This document shows positions 2,319 to 43,431 of a stretch of 64,000 nt of DNA, piece after piece; position 1 is the first letter of the stretch, and each line of letters starts with the position of its first letter. The notes beneath the pieces were generated by a model that searched no databases, was not told the origin of the DNA, and worked only from the letters and a program-made list of their open reading frames with translations. The stretch is from a virus, in the IMG/VR virus record IMGVR_UViG_3300035698_011202, positions 1 through 64,000 of that record; one strand, written 5' to 3'. The position numbers and the translations under genes were made by a program.

Positions 2319-2340
2319 AATAGCCCAGTTATGGGCTATT
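2319..2340 (-). terminator. Hairpin terminator after the fibre-adjacent genes
   Basis: Perfect 9-bp stem AATAGCCCA / TGGGCTATT with loop GTTA. On the minus strand it is followed by TGTCTTTTAAAATTCC. It sits between the small gene ending at 2362 and the lysis genes. The short T tract suggests partial termination between tail and lysis modules. Confidence 0.55.
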
Positions 2341-2361
2341 GGTCAATATAGCGAGGCTGTT

Positions 2362-2721
2362 TTAGCTTTGCATAGGGGGGAGTATGACTTCTACTAAATG
2401 CGCTTCACACGCAGTTTCAAGCTCTGCAGCATTTTTTGGTACGCTGTTTAACTGGAAACGAAATTGTTTATTATCCATTTCGTCGCCTTGGTTATTCAAA
2501 TTATAAGGAGGGTGACCGTCATCCATCGCTTTCTGAGTAGGCCAATAGACTATTTGCATGTGGGCCTGAGTATTCATGTCCGACCGTTCAACAGGCTCGT
2601 TTAGATTATTGTTATGATAGACACTCAACGAGCTGTTGCAGTTCATGTTGAAGTTAATAACTTTTATCCTAGCATCTGTCCAAGTTTGGCCTTGTGGGTC
2701 TGTAAATGTTGCAGTAATCAT
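2362..2721 (-). CDS. Hypothetical protein downstream of tail fibre
   Basis: A 119-residue protein beginning MITATFTDPQGQTW. It is rich in Asn and appears mostly beta. Its place directly after the giant fibre and a small possible chaperone suggests a tail-associated or receptor-interaction accessory protein. No family is recognised. The hairpin at 2319-2340 lies just downstream. Confidence 0.55.
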   Translation of the reverse strand: MITATFTDPQGQTWTDARIKVINFNMNCNSSLSVYHNNNLNEPVERSDMNTQAHMQIVYWPTQKAMDDGHPPYNLNNQGDEMDNKQFRFQLNSVPKNAAELETACEAHLVEVILPPMQS

Positions 2722-2739
2722 TTTTTATTCCTGTGTGTT

Positions 2740-3090
2740 TTAAGTTATAGGGTATTGCGCTTTAATAGCTAATACTTCATCTCGCCAAGCCTTTTCAGCC
2801 AGCTCTGTTTTATCGAATTGAAACTCAATAAACATAGGGTCTGACCTCAAGGTGTATGCACTCTTTCTTTTGATTAGGTTTACTTTAGAGGCCGCAGACA
2901 TGCACACCTCAAAGCATTCTTTATCTATATTATAAACTTTACCAACATAATTAAATGTTGGGTCAAACACTATCTCTATCCAATTTTCCAAGTTTTGAGG
3001 AATAGGAAATACTTGGACATTAGTTAAGTTAGTTTTCTCAACAAACGCCCGTGTATAAGTCAGCTCTTCTTTAAATTTACTTCTAAACAT
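2740..3090 (-). CDS. Possible tail fibre assembly protein
   Basis: A 116-residue protein. The ATG at 3090 overlaps the stop of the fibre gene by one base (TGATG), so the two are translated together. An in-frame GTG one codon upstream is an alternative start. The C-terminus, with KAWRDEVLAIKAQYP, recalls the 'W-R-E-L' tails of phage tail assembly chaperones encoded after fibres. That resemblance is weak; the coupling to the fibre is the stronger evidence. Confidence 0.45.
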   Translation of the reverse strand: MFRSKFKEELTYTRAFVEKTNLTNVQVFPIPQNLENWIEIVFDPTFNYVGKVYNIDKECFEVCMSAASKVNLIKRKSAYTLRSDPMFIEFQFDKTELAEKAWRDEVLAIKAQYPIT

Positions 3091-6000
3091 CACCCATTAT
3101 CCTTCTCTACAATGTTAACGCCACTTACCTTAAAGATGGTTGCGTCCTCTCCCGTATTAGTCAACGAAGTCCAACTAGTGTTAGGGCGTACTTTCCAAAT
3201 ATTCGCCCCCTCGCCACCCCAAAGTACAAACTGATTAAGGTCTGACAACGTGTAACTTTCCACTAGGTCAGCTACAGGTAATAACATAGCTTTTATAGTG
3301 TCATTGTTATTTGAAGAACCCAAAACAGACACAAACTGAAAGGCTCTCATATCAGAGGCTAGCGTTATGGTGCCTGAACCCAGACCTGAAGCATTGTAGT
3401 ACAATAAAGTGTAATCTAACTCCATCTCAATGCGCTTAAATGCAGGAGATTGAGCTTGCCAGAATGTACGAGTAATAGTAGTAGGTGTTCCACTAACGCG
3501 GGTCACTTGCAATACATACACTTCCGTAGCATCAGTAACATTAATGTCTTGGTATAAATCATTAATACTTAAATTAGCATTACGGTCGTAGTATCTTCCG
3601 TTTTCATTAGTGTTACTAGACGTGCCTGTGTAAGTCTTATCTACAATAGGTGTTGTTGAGGTTGTATTTCTATAAACACGCACTCTCCAAACAGGACTTG
3701 TGTAATCGGCCCCACCTGAAGATTCACCTGAAAACTGAGATGAAGCTACTAACCTCCATGACAGGTTGACTTTATTTCCTAAAACAGTCACTGCTGGTAA
3801 GGTGGTGGTGATACTTGTACCCGATTGAGAGGTAGTAACACTCTTGGTTGAGTTAGCATTAGTACCTACGTAATAAGGGTTTATCTCAGTACGCGCTTGG
3901 TCTTGTATCGAATCAATGTCTACCGTGTCTTTAGATAACTTTCCATCCAAGAAAGCGTTACCTTCAGCGTCAATAGAGAATATCTGCCTTTTAACACTCA
4001 AGTTATCATTTAGTAATGCGAAGGATATAGGCACTTGGGCATCAGGCGTAATTCTTAAAGACCTTCTATCTCCTGCTGCACCTACAACACCATTCACTTG
4101 TAAGTGTTTAGTCTGTATGGCACCTGAAGAAATCCAGTTAGCAGTAATAGTGTCCTCTAGTCCTACGGGGGGTTCATCGGGTAAGAAGTCATTGAAAGTA
4201 AGAACTTTAGATTTAGCGATGTTTGACCCGTGAGACTTAGCATACATATAACCATTAGCATCTACTTCCCAGTTGTTACCTATTAAGCGGTTACCTCTGA
4301 AATTTTGATTGTTACCGCTAGTGTTACCGTGGAATGTTTGGGCAGCATAATTATAGAAAATTGGTACGGATGTCTGAAAGTACATACTACCAGAAGCAAA
4401 AGCTGTACGTCCGTTAGTGTCTGAATAGAACCTACCATCATTACCATCACCCACTCTAAGGTCACCATTTACTATCACATCATGTGAGAATGTAAATTTA
4501 TCACCCGCCGCTTCATACCTAAGCCTAGTTCCATTATTAATATAAAACCCTGCTTGGTTATCAGATTGCCTTACAAACATTCTGAAAGTAGTGGTGCCCG
4601 ACTCTATGTTTATTGCAGTTTCATCCGATGTTTTACGCACAGTTAAGTCATTACTAAAAGTCTTACTTCCTGTAAAAGTTTGAGTACCTGATAACTTAGC
4701 TAAGTCGCTGTCGTTACCACTTGTCCAAACTTTGTACCTAGCATATCTATTTGAGTCTACGTTTGAGTAATATTCTAAGTCCCCATAATACGTAAAGACA
4801 AAACCACATGTAGCTGCTGAACCCACAGGAGAATAAAAATTAACTACTGTTTTTGAGGCACCAGTAACAGGTAAATTATAAGTACCTGATGCTAATTTAT
4901 TAGCCCAGTTATTATCTTGATTTAGTACACCCCTAGAACTTTTAAAATACTCAGGGCCACTGTGTTCATGATTTATACCTGCATAAGACGCATCTGTAAC
5001 ACTAGCTCTAAACTGAGCAGGGGTTGTGGGCCTTATATAATTATCAGTACTTTGATTAACCTGAGTCATGATGAACTTCACATTACCGTTCGTAGTGCCG
5101 TACTCACTCCTAAATAAGCGAGCTTGAATGTCACCAGAACTGTTACGTTCAACAACGGTATTCACAGTACTTGCAGAGGTTGAACTTTTATTGTTCAAGT
5201 TAGAGGCATTGCTAGATGTACCGTCCAAGCTACCTATAAAGTTAGCATGTAGTGGGCGCAGCGTTGTATGGTTAACACCATCAGCAAAGTAGAAATGACC
5301 ATCACTATGTAACGCCAATCGTCCTTGTTGTCTACCACCCCAATGAAACGCCAAAGCAGGAGCATAAGCATTAGAAGACTGACTAGTACCTACATAGTTA
5401 GTCTCTCTGAGTTCAATAGCTGCGTTCTGATAACCTCCATTGACGTCTGTAGACAGAAACTTATTATTTCCTTTAAACACGTTATTTGCTACAGCGTAAG
5501 CGCCGTTAGTGACGGTCTTGGCGTTACCATCAAGTTCACCTTCAAACGTATTACCTTTAAAGTTAGGAGCCTGAAACAGTCCACTAGCATGAAATATTGC
5601 CTGAGTAGTTCCGTTATAACCATTTTGCTGACCTGAAAGTATCCGGATGCTATTATCAGAGGCTAATATTAAGTCTTCAGTAGTGTGGTCATTTTCATAG
5701 TAACCTAAGCCTATAAGAACTTTCTCTGGTGCATCTCCTGCAAACACCATACAAGTTGAATCACTGTGAAAGGCTAATGCGTTCTGCAAGCTGTGTGTAA
5801 AAATACCACCACTTGAAGACTTAATTAAATATCTACGCACATTTCCAGAGTTGTTAAAGTTCAACTCACCTGTGAGTGTTCCTCCCGCTAACGGTATATA
5901 AGCAGCAAGCTGAGATTGCATAGCTACGTTACTTCCGTCCCATACTAATTTACCACTAGCGTTACCTAATGCTAAACCTGCTGCCGTAGGTGTATTTCCT

Positions 6001-24500: not shown

Positions 24501-24925
24501 ATCTTCCCTGTAATTTCACTCACCCCTTTAGTCAGACTATCCGTGTACCGTTTTACTAAAGCAGGGTCATTTAACTTGCTGGCTAAATTGCCTAAGTTTC
24601 CTATAATCCCTTGGGCTTCAGATTGCAGCGTAGCTACGCCGCCCCGAGAAATCGCCAATGCTCTGTTTAAAGGCGCAAGCTCTGCAGCATTCAAAGCATC
24701 AATAGGTTTTCGACTCTTAGCCGACATGCCGCTAGTCAGCTTTTCGTTAGCCTTAACGACATTATTTATGTCGGTCATAGATTGCTTGACAGTACCCATG
24801 CTTAGTTCAAGGGCTTTTTGTAGCTTCTCTAATTTTTTAGTCGCTTCGTCAACGGCTTTTTGACCGCTTTTATCAAATTTTACTTTTAATACGGTAGTAC
24901 GGATAGAACTGCTGTTATCACTCAT
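18566..24925 (-). CDS. H: Tape measure protein (2119 aa)
   Basis: It sets tail length and is ejected with DNA. The start is the ATG of GGAGATTGACGATG. The N-terminal third is long helical coiled coil rich in Ser, Lys, Arg and Asn. The conserved TP901-type tape measure region lies near residues 640-830 (AAVVLGQAGFGKDQIADSIE; SGIRSGSTLGTGLRQILIAL). Hydrophobic segments occur near residues 960-1000 and 1040-1060. The C-terminus has GEFVLRRKAVQSLG, as in many tape measures. By the usual length relation (about 0.15 nm per residue) the tail could be around 300 nm. Confidence 0.93.
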   Translation of the reverse strand: MSDNSSSIRTTVLKVKFDKSGQKAVDEATKKLEKLQKALELSMGTVKQSMTDINNVVKANEKLTSGMSAKSRKPIDALNAAELAPLNRALAISRGGVATLQSEAQGIIGNLGNLASKLNDPALVKRYTDSLTKGVSEITGKMVSSPAIKRAISQSTRSFLNEEIRRNPNLAKKESKFSDARTSAMSASDLKAQRQATAVYLKGATKANNAANNTGDTAFAKSSARLKGLFENQLAALDKETGSRKAFIAEQKRVFNSPEAKAKRKQDEKVRAANSTSITKTSAVRLAADINAREGKKRVVRGAARLDLGAKSPAELRRLSRDVSAYEKVVNAQVKNAPEGTQLRSQIDLRKQQISALKEGIVTQRESNAAAKVFYNSEPEKAKRKLSRANSSDLKQEVSARSKADSRVSEGARFARGLGDQSINMKSKGELTQIRNNLKEFARTVNQQVKNAPEGSDLRKQIDTQLASIRQSDKRVETQQQKNKAQIDASNSTQFKNDLKLQRDNNTTLLRETENRLAGDRFARAGKEGLNKSLVGLSSSELNELKKSAGDYANVVKGLIKSSSATSVVFDQATAELKRIERRLEQIKIKQNYRPAQTEIGRAQTSSARSLLAADERRRMDNGAGMFKQQAQLLRNYAVMGTGISLITQSGQFMVQLEKEMKQLQSIVALTNTEMQGLSKTLVAVSEKTKFTALEVTQAAVVLGQAGFGKDQIADSIEGITLFATAVGANLSEAVDLATSTMGIFNRDARDMGNIADKLTTAVNSSKLNLNKLALGLQYAGNIAAQSNVSFEETVAALGAMANSGIRSGSTLGTGLRQILIALQKPSEEFVRTTQLLGLSMSDLDISTNGLIPVLKKLSQSGFTVTDAMRTMQVRAAAAFGAFANNIDVADELAEKMEIGGAAARANAIQMESFANQFARLGSTFFSVTSEAFDPLLKSGTALVSTLADMLSGLKDVGGALSVIGSIAGGAAIGALVVSFGKLAIGLAAGGRAIAAILGIGSTVSGDGDRRPLNSNRLQRDNTRSSLNTARRAAMGTSALTVALRFLAGKVTLVLAAIGGLLGGIAYLADSFNDDAKLKDVVDKATAEENDAKSRQIASRDSIKALNKTLQNIATNEVKLSKDTDMLASTIKRVNSEFKALGLYIPDSVKDYKGLFDAVKTFKDEENASLDLALVDGGKASARTSNAIIQEQLPLKGENSAVAIFEKASRKLTGNTGERDRSERGPVGSGRIELGDFTTSLRDTSKIVTGLTQQYNQLAFTDKDGNVDKDKVAEGKSILDKILSVEGNLRDVFIREGNVQQYATETGLNGDVFKKYGKDFTDALQSIIFAISTSQTGFENNLTNSEANVINRRELTTLGDDAVTGGMLQLEQATKAFTSNISSVYQNVLKLDERDDLKAYTSMGENETTVLAELDRLTNNFKTTLRDRPLTGDELRKVLEAQNVDPLQIQNLLSNPELTSNQVREVLIQSGLDPKNNDNNKIIESTATGNGLSPQELQEAFVSTGFNEVVNAIILSLSVGFKNIATEAKFAKDLDFKNRGAILDAQMGTINKELSTSASAERLNVLADEKELLQAKISAIAREKEDFAGRLNDQGPQSKGVATRLTQQEAISSKAETQLIIDKNLFTQKFAKSLDGKNTNLDTKDRDYEETDGLRLIKSFTEAQESKIEKASELAKAEVIALKQTEEVFEARISELQKITTGGDKYTNQFKEASLEEQQLVTQQLIDKREERAKAEIDLTTEAIRARKVLIEYLESLVASNPDLAVDSGIDGSGLNKTIKEQIVKQAQAQKDLADDNKNQSDTNLDNKKTSDELGTIVRDLKANQFDDDVRRRLFAAMTGEGFNPLGDETTDTTYVPKNGQDTPEGILENVAGGFRGINDLLMQSLDNFDPLTEAMKGLNDVAQDLASNFAQAFTAFANGTLSGSEAFKAFTISILESMLDIASEIAANALLKGILQMVAGAGFGGMFSPTGTTMAGNPSTNMNGGMNAWNGGEQFAGSYAGGGEITRGMSTRDSTFAKVAKGEFVLRRKAVQSLGIDTVKALNSADPNLIDRQAEKLGGNPMAQQKDSGSKEVNVYVVSPEQMPSSLGANDVVHIIADNLTRGGVTKQLVKRINMGTL

Positions 24926-24941
24926 CGTCAATCTCCAAATT

Positions 24942-25340
24942 TTACGACAAGCCGCGTATCATGGCTTGCGCTTGTGCAATATTCTGAGGTTCATCTTGCT
25001 TTCGGACAGTTACAGGCTTTTCACTCTCACCACCCATTATGGCAACAGCTACTTTCATAAGGGACTCTTGAAACTGTCCGAACTTAACGGTCTGTAAGCC
25101 TACAACAAGCTTTATCTTTAATTGTATATCAGAATATGCCAGCGACCAGAAGACAGCCTCTAGTTGACTCGGGACAGAATCAAACACAAAACACATTTGG
25201 TCTTCAAATTCTAAGCCCGAATACCAGACGTTGAAGGTTTCTAAATACTTTTCTTGATTGCCTCTGTCCTTTTTATCGAGCTTGCTATCGACTTCTCCCA
25301 AGCTCGTAAAAAAAAATACGATATATGGCTCTCTACCCAA
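24942..25340 (-). CDS. T: Tail assembly chaperone T extension (frameshift product GT)
   Basis: This reading frame overlaps the 3' end of G by 100 nt and lies in the -1 frame relative to it. The stretch after the shift site is expressed as the C-terminus of a G-T fusion of about 220 residues spanning 24942-25603, as in lambda and most siphoviruses. GT recruits tape measure and tube subunits during tail assembly. The gene lies directly before the tape measure. An independent start at the ATG at 25340 is unlikely. Confidence 0.82.
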   Translation of the reverse strand: MGREPYIVFFFTSLGEVDSKLDKKDRGNQEKYLETFNVWYSGLEFEDQMCFVFDSVPSQLEAVFWSLAYSDIQLKIKLVVGLQTVKFGQFQESLMKVAVAIMGGESEKPVTVRKQDEPQNIAQAQAMIRGLS

Positions 25341-25671: not shown

Positions 25672-26505
25672 TTACACAATAGGTGCAGTAACCGTGTCAG
25701 TTAGTAACTCAGCTACTTTGTTCTTGAACTGAGCATAGAACGGGTCACCGCTAATAGGCTTCATAGGCATAAATTCGAACGGGACGTTACCGAAGTTATC
25801 AGTTGTAAACGACATAGTTAATCCTGAACTCACACGAATTTTAGGAATTAACAATACGATGAACTGTCCATCAGCCAACTGACCCTGCACTTTAGCAGAG
25901 TAATAACGGTCAGTATCGGTAGAACCAATATCTAATACGTTAACCAGTGACACGCGAGTACCTGCAGCAAAGCTACTTACTGAAACAACATCTGGCATAG
26001 AAACCGTCATGGTTGCGCTTGTAGAAGTGTTGCCAGAAATACCAGAAACAGCCGTAGCTGTACCCGCAACAATCTTATCCGTAGAAGGGTCACGCAATAA
26101 TACGCGGCTACCAAGGGTAATGTTCTGAATGTCAGCGGCATCTTCAAACGAAAGGTCTACTGAGCCAGCTGAGAATGATGCTGTCCCTGAAGTTTCCAAC
26201 GCTTTTTGAGGGGCTGAAATTAAGCCTGAGCCTTCTAATCCTAACGCATACGCTAAGTTCTGAGTAGTATACTCGTACATTTCAAAAGAACCCCGAGTCG
26301 TTTGACCCGTAGTTAATGAAACGATAATGTCGTTGGTACGACCTTGTGTTAGCTCGGTTTGGTCTTTAGTTGCTTCAATACTGAAGTTTTTTACCAAGCC
26401 TACGCCATGCTGCACAGGGTTTAAATTATACACGTCTTCTGGGTTGCCGATCATTACTTCGGCAGTACCCAACATGAATTTCTGTGATTTAGCATTTCCG
26501 CTCAT
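25672..26505 (-). CDS. V: Major tail tube protein (V-like)
   Basis: A 277-residue protein, starting at the ATG of GGAGATTGACGATG. The N-terminus (GNAKSQKFMLGTAEVMIGNP) and the GLVKNFSIEATKDQTELTQG segment are typical of siphovirus tube proteins. These form stacked hexameric rings. Its strong start signal and following terminator fit high expression. It lies between the plus-strand moron and G/GT. Confidence 0.85.
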   Translation of the reverse strand: MSGNAKSQKFMLGTAEVMIGNPEDVYNLNPVQHGVGLVKNFSIEATKDQTELTQGRTNDIIVSLTTGQTTRGSFEMYEYTTQNLAYALGLEGSGLISAPQKALETSGTASFSAGSVDLSFEDAADIQNITLGSRVLLRDPSTDKIVAGTATAVSGISGNTSTSATMTVSMPDVVSVSSFAAGTRVSLVNVLDIGSTDTDRYYSAKVQGQLADGQFIVLLIPKIRVSSGLTMSFTTDNFGNVPFEFMPMKPISGDPFYAQFKNKVAELLTDTVTAPIV

Positions 26506-26570
26506 CGTCAATCTCCAAATTTTGATTTAGTTAGGTTATAATCAATACCTCAACAAAGGAGCGAAAGACG

Positions 26571-29778: not shown

Positions 29779-30990
29779 TTACGCTAAGGTGTTAAAAATT
29801 GTGCGCGTATCGCCGTACACTAAACGGTAACCAGTATTAATGGTTCTTACGTAAGTGATAGACTGGTTTTTGATAGCTTCTTCAGATTCATTAACTACTG
29901 AACCTGTTTCAACTAGCTCTTCTAACGTGTCACCTTGAGAGTAACAAATTAGCTGACCGGCTGGCGCAGAGCTTGATATACGAATAGACACGCCATTCAT
30001 AAAGTCCAAGTTCATTGAAAAGCTAGGCATACCACGGCCCTGAAGCGTTTCAGCATCAGAACTTTGATTGCCATTGTTCGGTAAGAACATTAGGAACAAT
30101 TCTAAAAACATAGAATAGTTACATACGATGGTATCAACCGGCACCATGTCGCGGGCGCGTTGAGTCAAGAAGTCAGCTAAAGCAACATAGTTGTCTTTTA
30201 GGGACTTGGCACCTGAAACATCCCAATTCTTATAACCAGAAGCAGCTTTAACAGTCGCAGCTGCATGAACACCATCACCACTAACTAACAAGTTAGTTGC
30301 TTGACGAACTTTACCGATTTCCATGTTACGAACAATACGAGCAACATAGGGCGTTAGTATGTCTAAGCTTGCACGACGTTCAAATTCGTATGAAGTACGA
30401 ATACCAGAACCATGCTTGAAGAACTTAACGCGACGGTCACTAGACGTAATTGTCTGCATTGGGATGTTCGCTAGTTCTGCGATAGGTGACGTATTAAGGT
30501 TACCTGCATCGTCAAAAATAGCTTCCGTGATAATCTCGTTACCTGTAACTGTACGGGTCTGAGAAACCATACCAGTAGTGCTTTCAAACTGGTCTAAACG
30601 ATTGGTGAACTGCATCATGTCATCAATAGTTTCTGGGAAAAGCGCACGAACTCCTGGACGGGTTGCAAACGTATCTGCAGCAGCTTGAAGGGTCACACCA
30701 GATTTAAAGTCATTTTTAAATGGTAAGTTAAGCTCAGAAAGAGCAGCTTCATAACCTGTTAAAAATTGACCGTTGGCCCCTACGAAGCGGTTGTGCTTGT
30801 TCTCGTCAACTGAGCTTGCAACGTCAATCGAAAGAGTAAGGAAGTCACGGATACTTAGTCCAAATTGCTTTGCCTGTGAGCAAAGTTTAAGACCCGCATT
30901 TTTAGAAACTTCTTGTCTGTCATCAGCTAAACCAGCAAGTACTTCGTTTACTGTTCCGCGTTTGACCTGAGTTAAAGGTGTTAAATTCAT
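29779..30990 (-). CDS. E: Major capsid protein (HK97 fold, E-like)
   Basis: A 403-residue protein. The start is the ATG in TTTGGAGATTGACGATG. Position after the decoration gene, length, and segments such as ADTFATRPGVRALFPETIDD and a C-terminal SITYVRTINTGYRLVYGDTR fit major capsid proteins of siphoviruses. A Gly-rich strand region and conserved aromatic residues agree with the HK97 fold. No pro-domain cleavage site can be proven by eye. Followed by a strong terminator. Confidence 0.82.
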   Translation of the reverse strand: MNLTPLTQVKRGTVNEVLAGLADDRQEVSKNAGLKLCSQAKQFGLSIRDFLTLSIDVASSVDENKHNRFVGANGQFLTGYEAALSELNLPFKNDFKSGVTLQAAADTFATRPGVRALFPETIDDMMQFTNRLDQFESTTGMVSQTRTVTGNEIITEAIFDDAGNLNTSPIAELANIPMQTITSSDRRVKFFKHGSGIRTSYEFERRASLDILTPYVARIVRNMEIGKVRQATNLLVSGDGVHAAATVKAASGYKNWDVSGAKSLKDNYVALADFLTQRARDMVPVDTIVCNYSMFLELFLMFLPNNGNQSSDAETLQGRGMPSFSMNLDFMNGVSIRISSSAPAGQLICYSQGDTLEELVETGSVVNESEEAIKNQSITYVRTINTGYRLVYGDTRTIFNTLA

Positions 30991-31017
30991 CGTCAATCTC
31001 CAAATTTTAAATTGTTC

Positions 31018-34134: not shown

Positions 34135-36366
34135 TTAGTATCGTGTGATAATTTTATCAGGCGAATAACTATTGCCAAAGCCAATCAAGTCTTGCGCCCC
34201 AAAAAAGTCCTCACTTTCGCCGGACATTAGCATGTTGCTATGACGTATACCAGATAGCCCCACGGTTAAGTTGACGAAGGGTTCTTTGCCTTCTACGTAA
34301 CGATAATACTCAATAGACCCAAACATATAACCTAACGCATGAAAGAAGTGGTCGTTACCATTTAATTTAACCCAGACCGGAATCTTCTCGTCGTTTTCTT
34401 CTCGTACCATGTCTACTAAATGCTCTATAATCATGGTCTTGAATTTACCAAACCCATCGAGGAATAAGTTTCGCTTCTTAATACCAAAAAACACGGAATC
34501 TAGGACGTGGGTTCTGTTTATCTGAACGTAATCTAACTTGTCTAAGCCATCCGTGACCAAAGCAATAGGCTTGTTGACCGTGTAATGAGCAGGAGCAATT
34601 TTTCCATCACTGGCTTCGCGTATAGCATTAGCCGTGGGTGTGTAAGGGTAACGGTCCATCAGGCCACTGATGATGTTGTATTTAGCTCTCATGCTGTCTA
34701 CAAAAGACTGGATAGCCGATGAGGGGCACGTCATAAATTCAACTACGCGAATTTTTTCAGTCCCTTCCATACGCGCTACAACAATGTGACACGTTTTACC
34801 CACGTCTATACCTATGAAGTGGGGTAGGGTGTTATCGACAGGCGGGCATCCAGCGTAGCCAAACATCGCATCGACATCGCTGTCCGACATTTTCTGGTCT
34901 TCATTGGTGTAAGGCTCACCAAGCACCGTGTTGTGGAAGCCTTTTAAATTATCCTTTTCCAAGTACTTGAACATCTGAGTAAAACAATAAACAGGGTCCA
35001 GACGGTGTGTTGAGAAAGTCCTGACACGATAGCCTCGGTTTAAAGTCCTACTTGGATACTTAGCCACCCACTCACGATTATCATGGTCAGCAAGATTAAG
35101 AGGTTTGTGGCATTTCTCGCAATAAACTTTCGCAGTCTCAAGTTTAACTTGTCCACTATCAACAAGCTTAGATGAAAGGTGAATAAAACTATCACAATCA
35201 TCAGGCATACCATCGACACGAACAAAATCGCGGTTAAATAAAGGAACTTGGTGATGATTGCAAGCAGCACATTTAAGAATATATTCATGTTGGTCACTTC
35301 TAGCATAGCCTTTGTCAACACCAAACCCTTCATAGGTAGGTGTACTAAACCGCTGGCTGACTCGGTGGTCTGAACCCTGCAATCGAGAGTTGAACAAAGA
35401 CAGCATATCGGGGGGTGTTAAATCAATTTCATCGTTAAATACAAAGTCAGCATTGATAGATGTCGCATCTGCCTCGCTTGAGCCGGTGACATACAAGTAC
35501 GACGTACCAATTCTCATCAAATCCATGGATTGTTGCGTCTTATCTTGGGCATCTTGCCTGAATGCTTTGTCGTATTTCAGCAAGGGCTGGATACGCGCCT
35601 TAGAAATACGCTTAAACATTCGCTCGTTGGGCATGGTGTAGATTAATGACGTATTGGGTGTACGAATTAGCAGCGTTATTGCTTTGCGAATTTGTATCTC
35701 AGTGTTGTGCGTCGGTATCATTCCTCGACCACACAAAAACAAGTGAGAAGGTGAGTCTACTGATATACATCGAACAGGTACGGGGTCACAGGCTTTGATA
35801 GATTGTATGTAGTGGTGTCCAATCCCGTTCGCGGTGGGTATTCGTATCGTTCGACCCGTTACTAAATGGGCTAATCGATGAGTTGGATGCACGTTGACTT
35901 CTCTGTGCAGCTTAATTCCGAGAAAGTTGACGTAAGTTTCTACTTTCCAGCGATGACCAGCATCAGCGATTATTTTTTCCCCTCCTTTGAATTTTATTTC
36001 AAAGCAGTCATGGTCTTGATAAATGGGTGATACGTAAGTGACGTTGCAGTGCCGTAGATTTTCGTCAAAGACCACATCCCCCACATCAAGAGCGCCCATA
36101 TTACTAAACCCCCCGAGTACACGAACAGGCGTATCTAGCGCCAAAGCAAGACCAACCTGCGATGGCTTGATTACATCCATGTTTGGGTGCATATCGTCGG
36201 CTATCTGTTTTTGGAACGGGTATCGGTCAAAAGAGAAGGGGCGTTTGTTAAGGCTAGTGTTGGCACACATCCAATCGCCATGGCTCATATCAGCCGAATC
36301 TTTGTTATAGCGACCATTAGCTTTAGACACGAAGCTTTGAACAAAGCTGTTCTTTTTCATTCTCAT
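34135..36366 (-). CDS. Terminase large subunit (GpA type) with intein
   Basis: A 743-residue precursor; after removal of the intein the protein is about 595 residues. Joining the flanks restores the ATPase P-loop KPSQVGL-TEIQIRKA. Walker B-like FVFNDEIDLT and a zinc-ribbon (CAACNHHQ ... CEKCHKPL) follow, as in the GpA family. The RNase H-like nuclease region shows acidic residues in FIGIDVGKTCH, GLMDRYPYTP and NGNDHFFHALGY. It packages and cuts DNA. The ATG at 36366 is preferred because GGCGATGAG mimics the common leader; ATG at 36372 is possible. Confidence 0.92.
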   Translation of the reverse strand: MRMKKNSFVQSFVSKANGRYNKDSADMSHGDWMCANTSLNKRPFSFDRYPFQKQIADDMHPNMDVIKPSQVGLALALDTPVRVLGGFSNMGALDVGDVVFDENLRHCNVTYVSPIYQDHDCFEIKFKGGEKIIADAGHRWKVETYVNFLGIKLHREVNVHPTHRLAHLVTGRTIRIPTANGIGHHYIQSIKACDPVPVRCISVDSPSHLFLCGRGMIPTHNTEIQIRKAITLLIRTPNTSLIYTMPNERMFKRISKARIQPLLKYDKAFRQDAQDKTQQSMDLMRIGTSYLYVTGSSEADATSINADFVFNDEIDLTPPDMLSLFNSRLQGSDHRVSQRFSTPTYEGFGVDKGYARSDQHEYILKCAACNHHQVPLFNRDFVRVDGMPDDCDSFIHLSSKLVDSGQVKLETAKVYCEKCHKPLNLADHDNREWVAKYPSRTLNRGYRVRTFSTHRLDPVYCFTQMFKYLEKDNLKGFHNTVLGEPYTNEDQKMSDSDVDAMFGYAGCPPVDNTLPHFIGIDVGKTCHIVVARMEGTEKIRVVEFMTCPSSAIQSFVDSMRAKYNIISGLMDRYPYTPTANAIREASDGKIAPAHYTVNKPIALVTDGLDKLDYVQINRTHVLDSVFFGIKKRNLFLDGFGKFKTMIIEHLVDMVREENDEKIPVWVKLNGNDHFFHALGYMFGSIEYYRYVEGKEPFVNLTVGLSGIRHSNMLMSGESEDFFGAQDLIGFGNSYSPDKIITRY
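35704..36147 (-). mobile_element. Class 3-type mini-intein in terminase Walker A
   Basis: 148 residues, A74 to N221 of the precursor. Block A begins ALALDTPVRVLGG with Ala in place of the usual Cys/Ser 1. Block B has ADAGHRWKVE, with the Trp of the WCT motif. Block F is VRCISVDSPSHLFLCGRG, with the Cys at the class 3 nucleophile position. Block G ends PTHN, and Thr is the first downstream extein residue. These are the marks of class 3 inteins. No homing endonuclease domain is present, so mobility on its own is unlikely. Confidence 0.9.
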
Positions 36367-36434
36367 CGCCATAGTTTAATTTTATGCGTGATAAGGTATC
36401 ATTTGTAGCGAAACATACAATATGGCAGATGACG

Positions 36435-43287: not shown

Positions 43288-43321
43288 AAACTTAAATTAA
43301 CTTGAAAATTGGAAATTGACG

Positions 43322-43431
43322 ATGAAAAATACTTCGGTATCAAATCTAACCTGTCCTCAGGTGTTCAACTAATGGCGGTCGCTACGTTCGACACTCAGCG
43401 AGAATTAGCTTCTTGGGTGAATAGTTTATGA
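43322..43431 (+). pseudogene. Frameshifted small gene
   Basis: The leader GGAAATTGACG precedes ATG at 43322, but the frame stops after 16 codons. One extra A in the run ATGAAAAATAC would give a 36-residue protein starting MKKYFGIKSNLSSGVQ and ending in TFDTQRELASWVNSL. Its TGA overlaps the ATG of the next gene (ATGA), as with real coupled genes. A TTG start in the second frame (about 40 residues, near 43312) could also express it. Either a real one-base deletion or a homopolymer sequencing error. Confidence 0.6.

Follow-up and report, generated by a model that had tools for sequence, protein, structure and literature searches.

Class 3 inteins are recognised by a first position without a nucleophile, by Trp at block B:12, Cys at F:4 and Thr at G:5 (the WCT residues), by His at B:10 and Asn at G:7, and by Ser or Thr at position +1 (PMC3196547; PMC5222942); 1701 of them have been counted in nr (PMC7891396). 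The described inteins most similar to the element reported here are MsmDnaBi1 (6bs8) and MchDnaB1 (6rix/6riy), two class 3 inteins of 139 and 145 aa that likewise lack an endonuclease and interrupt a P-loop, in their case that of mycobacterial DnaB. The P-loop serine of DnaBi1 doubles as splicing nucleophile (PMC6195587), and MchDnaB1 uses a protease-like triad, Cys124-His65-Thr143 (PMC7664689). Other class 3 inteins occupy sites c, d and e of the mycobacteriophage terminase TerL1, also in the ATPase domain (Kelley et al. 2016, PMC5050341). Class 3 inteins, their presence in phage terminases (PMC5050341) and class 3 mini-inteins in a P-loop (DnaB) are thus already known.

The locus studied here lies in a window of 64,000 nucleotides taken from a 72-kb virus record (IMGVR_UViG_3300035698_011202, positions 1 to 64,000). 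The minus strand of the window carries, at 34135..36372, a terminase large-subunit gene recognised by its ORF translation and profile matches, whose precursor has 745 aa. It is the only terminase copy in the record and precedes the portal, capsid and other head genes, which are found on the same strand. The N-extein (36148..36372, minus strand) has 75 aa, ends in KPSQVGL and shares 88% aa identity with the terminase of an uncultivated relative, L002. The C-extein (34135..35703, minus strand) has 522 aa starting from TEIQ and is followed by the stop codon; its matches to PF05876 GpA_ATPase (E 2e-16) and phrog_675 (E 1e-103) identify the exteins as those of a gpA-type terminase. The host of the insert is a tailed phage with a gpA-family terminase. 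An earlier note, made from the sequence alone, had placed a class 3 mini-intein in the Walker A motif of this terminase at 35704-36147, limits that are right to the base. They correspond to residues 76-223 of the precursor, in frame (window 36147 down to 35704, minus strand), and the 148-aa insert lacks an endonuclease domain. This identification is supported by all the tests made: those of the sequence, the signature residues and the predicted fold, and the comparison with empty- and occupied-site homologues.

In phmmer searches the insert matches the class 3 DnaB inteins 6rix, 6riy and 6bs8 over its full length (E about 1e-19; 6rix best, E 8.5e-20), and the NCBIfam intein_Cterm model TIGR01443 matches it above its cut-off. 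A Pfam search returned no match within the insert, so that the window copy encodes no endonuclease and is not an active homing element, unlike the allele of the contig L001 described below. Elsewhere in the window, neither another copy of this intein nor a second one of its kind turned up. The AF2 model of the mini-intein (pLDDT 89) adopts a HINT fold, for which the top Foldseek matches are class 3 DnaB inteins (E about 1e-11). These are also its nearest PDB structures: the MchDnaB1 and MsmDnaB1 structures superpose with Z 22.0-22.3 at 1.2-1.6 A (for MchDnaB1, VIA-align Z 22.3, 1.6 A over 130 residues), followed by the gp41-1 WCT mutant with Z 19.0. A separate observation concerns annotation: the PHROGs terminase families phrog_15 and phrog_36964 are matched by the intein alone (E 5e-14 and 2e-17). 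These profiles include class 3 intein sequence, and annotation with them can hide inteins.

The boundaries of the insert are fixed by relatives that lack it. Its excision from the translation restores ...IKPSQVGL|TEIQIRK..., and the L002 gene, whose exteins are 85-88% identical, reads exactly KPSQVGL-TEIQIRK and has 597 instead of 745 residues, as the rejoining of the flanks suggested in the earlier note requires. Exactly those 148 residues are missing from relatives at 85%, 60% and 48% identity, the comparison with intein-free homologues for which that note had called, and the site is also empty in L003, L038, Pseudoalteromonas phage KB12-38 and many others. The segment is not a normal domain of these terminases, since 52 of the 65 in the terminase tree are devoid of it and the remainder carry inteins. 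The intein-free L002 protein matches PF05876 over profile positions 4-234 (E 1.6e-21), and its structural model (pLDDT 80), with which Foldseek returned phage large terminases, places a strand at 64-68, the loop KPSQVGL at 69-75 and a helix at 75-89. According to this model, the insertion junction (75/76) is the last step of the terminase P-loop, so that Thr+1 (codon 35701..35703, minus strand), also located by the class 3 alignment, is predicted to act as second nucleophile in splicing and, in the mature terminase, to be the Walker A Thr.

The Ala start and the motifs GHRW, VRCISV and PTHN before Thr that had been read from the DNA are all present in the translation. Position 1 is Ala, not Cys, Ser or Thr, with the boundary given by L002. 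The WCT residues are Trp67 (block B:12, codon 35947..35949), Cys127 (F:4, 35767..35769), the predicted first nucleophile, and Thr146 (G:5, 35710..35712). They are accompanied by His65 (B:10, 35953..35955), the base of the proposed catalytic triad and the equivalent of MchDnaB1 His65 (PMC7664689), by the predicted cyclising Asn148 (G:7, 35704..35706) and by Thr+1, all on the minus strand. His65, Trp67 and Cys127 are found in 81 of 81 sequences of the class 3 set and Thr146 and Asn148 in 80 of 80, an invariance that is partly built in, as the 82 sequences of the alignment were gathered by similarity. The note had chosen Trp67 and Cys127 correctly but had missed His65; the Thr of the WCT set is Thr146, inside the intein, and not the Thr+1 that it had listed. 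Its numbers C200 and W140 fit a start at the ATG at 36366; counted from the ATG at 36372, these residues are C202 and W142. The second Cys to which it pointed, in FLCGRG, does exist (Cys139). Nevertheless, it is Cys in just 11 of the 82 class 3 inteins, and it was rejected as a catalytic or conserved residue.

The numbers of His65 and Trp67 are identical to those of three characterised class 3 mini-inteins, and C127-H65-T146 are the equivalents of the MchDnaB1 triad. Like MsmDnaBi1 and MchDnaB1, the window intein combines H65, W67, C(F:4), T(G:5) and N with a Cys48, and its +1 residue is the Walker A Ser/Thr. Contrary to them, it resides in a gpA-type terminase instead of DnaB, it has Thr at +1 and Leu at -1 where they have Ser and Lys, and it belongs to a separate clade of the intein tree. 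The TerL1 inteins differ in that their hosts are of the Terminase_1 family and their sites lie outside the P-loop; moreover, TerL1-c, in the form used in cleavage assays, has a LAGLIDADG domain (PMC5050341). Class 3 inteins are also carried by the terminases of Vibrio phage 489E54-1 and of an Endozoicomonas plasmid (CP092490.1, gpA type), the latter at the equivalent QVG|T site, but these inteins are full-length with endonucleases and their exteins are distant. No paper joining intein, terminase and gpA was found in an incomplete coverage of the literature, and we do not claim the host family as new.

These residues suggest how the insert could be removed. The terminase gene would be translated as the 745-aa precursor, in which Cys127, activated by His65 and Thr146 and positioned by Trp67, would attack the Leu(-1)-Ala1 bond. 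The N-extein would be transferred to Thr+1, and Asn148 would then cyclise, releasing the 148-aa intein and a 597-aa terminase with a rebuilt Walker A loop, KPSQVGL-T. The ATPase would be broken until the intein splices out. We are highly confident that a gpA terminase is here interrupted, in its P-loop, by a class 3 mini-intein that is spliced by the class 3 pathway and belongs to a site-specific lineage whose window copy has no endonuclease; of this, splicing and the order of reactions are the parts that we infer. An alternative would be a HINT domain that has lost splicing or retains cleavage alone, in which case the terminase would be dead and the phage defective. Precedent exists in one published class 3-like intein, which is dead and lacks catalytic residues (PMC3196547). 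Yet the window mini-intein has lost no catalytic residue and its frame is intact, the extein differences from L001 are mostly synonymous (8 of 10 silent), and the terminase is single-copy in the record, all of which make a dead domain very improbable. The exteins evolve under purifying selection (dN/dS about 0.03-0.07, with dS saturated in the comparison with L002). Since they do so in a record with a single terminase copy, the intein would have to splice for the terminase to work. The most economical reading is hence that of an endonuclease-less remnant, maintained because splicing is obligatory.

It could also be imagined that a functional intein is kept for the sake of conditional splicing, with a redox control through C48-C127 that would switch on packaging only in suitable conditions. 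MsmDnaBi1, also a class 3 P-loop mini-intein, is inhibited when its Cys48 and its catalytic Cys form a reversible disulfide (PMC6195587). The window intein has a Cys at this position (codon 36004..36006, minus strand), which is invariant in the seven same-site inteins aligned and would be a likelier redox partner of Cys127 than Cys139. Nevertheless, Cys48 is shared by 52 of the 82 class 3 inteins, including endonuclease-bearing ones, and may thus be structural, and the existence of close relatives without any intein indicates that regulation by the intein is not required. We therefore regard conditional splicing as unlikely, and the suggestion of the earlier note that the intein may time terminase activity as a speculation with precedent in the DnaB inteins.

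The window intein has many relatives at its own site. The scan of viral contigs and genome contigs recovered, at the exact same KPSQVG|T position of related terminases, full-length class 3 inteins with LAGLIDADG endonucleases of 344-409 aa (L006, 373 aa; L018, 344; L062, 403; L064, 409; L065, 399; L068, 372; L180, 407; L253, 365). Together with the partial L001 intein, these share the site, the intein clade and the terminase family of the window intein and differ from it by the additional LAGLIDADG domain, which in L001 and L062 matches PF14528. The intein of L188:3324-5987 (IMGVR_UViG_3300037863_000166) has 281 aa and both its LAGLIDADG motifs are damaged (GTRLKSG, LMDTGGG), so it is apparently in mid-decay, and L186 has a second mini-intein at this site (145 aa), 39% identical to the one in the window. 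One terminase family thus shows the site empty, full-length (344-409 aa), decaying (281 aa) and mini (145 and 148 aa). These states are patchy on the terminase tree, with 11 changes, at least 8 of which are forced by well-supported branches. In the intein tree (82 rows), the same-site inteins form one clade (support 97/93) with one intruder, L117. The same-site intein tree was built on only 108 columns, and the columns in which MAFFT had spread the mini-intein linker across the endonuclease were left out of use. The two mini-inteins might have a single origin, as they are joined in a 17-row tree with support 59/15, but the 82-row tree separates them. As judged from these sequences, such a distribution is that of a site-specific element with repeated entry and loss, and the window intein would belong to a lineage specific to the terminase site whose LAGLIDADG-bearing members persist in related phages.

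A near-identical relative of the window is L001, a contig of 24.8 kb. Over 24 kb, between about 12120 and 35781 of the window, the two share 98-99.6% identity, and at 35781 the match ends inside the intein. Both inteins finish with the same 70 nt (35704..35773, minus strand), and everything upstream of these is unrelated. In that upstream part, L001 encodes, in frame, a LAGLIDADG endonuclease with 64% identity to the one in L062. In the 45 nt that precede the last 75 nt of the intein, L001 agrees with the window at 13 of 45 positions, which is near chance, and with L062 at 35 of 45; over the last 75 nt themselves, the agreement of L062 with either L001 or the window is only about 63%. When both strands were compared, the linker DNA of the mini-intein showed no significant similarity to the L001 endonuclease. 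We rejected the idea that the mini-intein arose from the L001 allele by a simple, recent loss of the endonuclease, on account of these 13/45 and 35/45 agreements and of the linker. The shared intein end and common downstream phage background, combined with a different upstream origin, rather place a breakpoint inside the intein. Both inteins would accordingly be mosaics recombined within the intein, although the order of the alleles is not readable from the breakpoint, and the mini and LAGLIDADG alleles look as if they sit within one phage species. In that case, both alleles would coexist in near-identical phages.

The main caveat on the L001 allele is a strain-level misassembly, in which reads of two phages would have been joined in the conserved C-terminal block of the intein and the phage itself would have no full-length allele. 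Assemblies often begin at strain branch points, and L001 starts just 819 nt upstream of the breakpoint, within the endonuclease domain, so that the N-terminal half of its intein is unseen; searches with the exact N-extein DNA and with endonuclease peptides found no other contig with this half. The GC3 of the L001 endonuclease part (0.33, against 0.44 in its terminase) also mildly favors an artifact. By contrast, its total GC (41.6%) is nearer to that of the phage (42.8%) than to that of L062 (48.4%) and argues mildly against one. Furthermore, the reading frame is unbroken across the junction and the 70-nt identical run starts at block F rather than at GMIPTHN, the motif with the highest conservation. 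A misassembly is, on balance, improbable. If both alleles are real, the mini-intein might act as a shield, its occupied site blocking invasion by the full-length intein present in the population (L001), while the alleles would swap parts by recombination in their shared end and not by ordinary homing; we consider this scenario a long shot.

The usual explanation of mini-inteins is that they are remnants deprived of their endonuclease, and alleles are normally compared across species. The distinctive point of this locus is the pair of mini and full inteins in near-identical phages: mini and endonuclease-bearing inteins stand at one codon boundary in phages that are 98-99.6% identical over 24 kb. 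With an empty site in a relative of 85% protein identity and a decaying endonuclease in others, the homing cycle becomes testable in one phage group, as does the idea that a mini-intein keeps the site closed to re-invasion. Halobacteria are a described case in which different intein states coexist, both between lineages and within them (PMC4071816). With this locus, the P-loop class 3 inteins gain an example from a gpA-family terminase, and this example may serve as a short splicing tool for Leu(-1)/Thr(+1) junctions.

Some observations concern other loci. An RGSGK|T site is occupied by related class 3 inteins three times in the genome of Planctomycetes bacterium syqfu (CP087563.1; L260, L255, L259). 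Two copies are full-length (346 aa), and the third, of 159 aa, is almost the same sequence with the endonuclease cleanly removed, so that this trio pictures mini-intein formation directly. The Endozoicomonas sp. Mp262 plasmid mentioned above (CP092490.1; L056, terminase with full-length intein at 2339-5313) is linear, 39.5 kb long and unannotated, its terminase frame appears shifted downstream of the intein, and it is probably a phage or phage-plasmid. In Actinopolymorpha pittospori (L281, NZ_JADBEM010000001.1), one ORF contains two separate class 3 intein starts, possibly reflecting two inteins in one protein. Within the window itself, the 24-nt sequence TCATCGTCAATCTCCAAATTTTAA is repeated with at most one mismatch at 24922-24945, 26502-26525 and 30987-31010 (plus-strand letters), and a variant of it occurs at 43302-43325 of the minus strand. 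The minus-strand reading of the repeat is GGAG, a spacer and ATG, located where tail and capsid genes begin, and it looks like a repeated translation-start module; the capsid gene probably starts at the ATG within it, not at the TTG at 30996.
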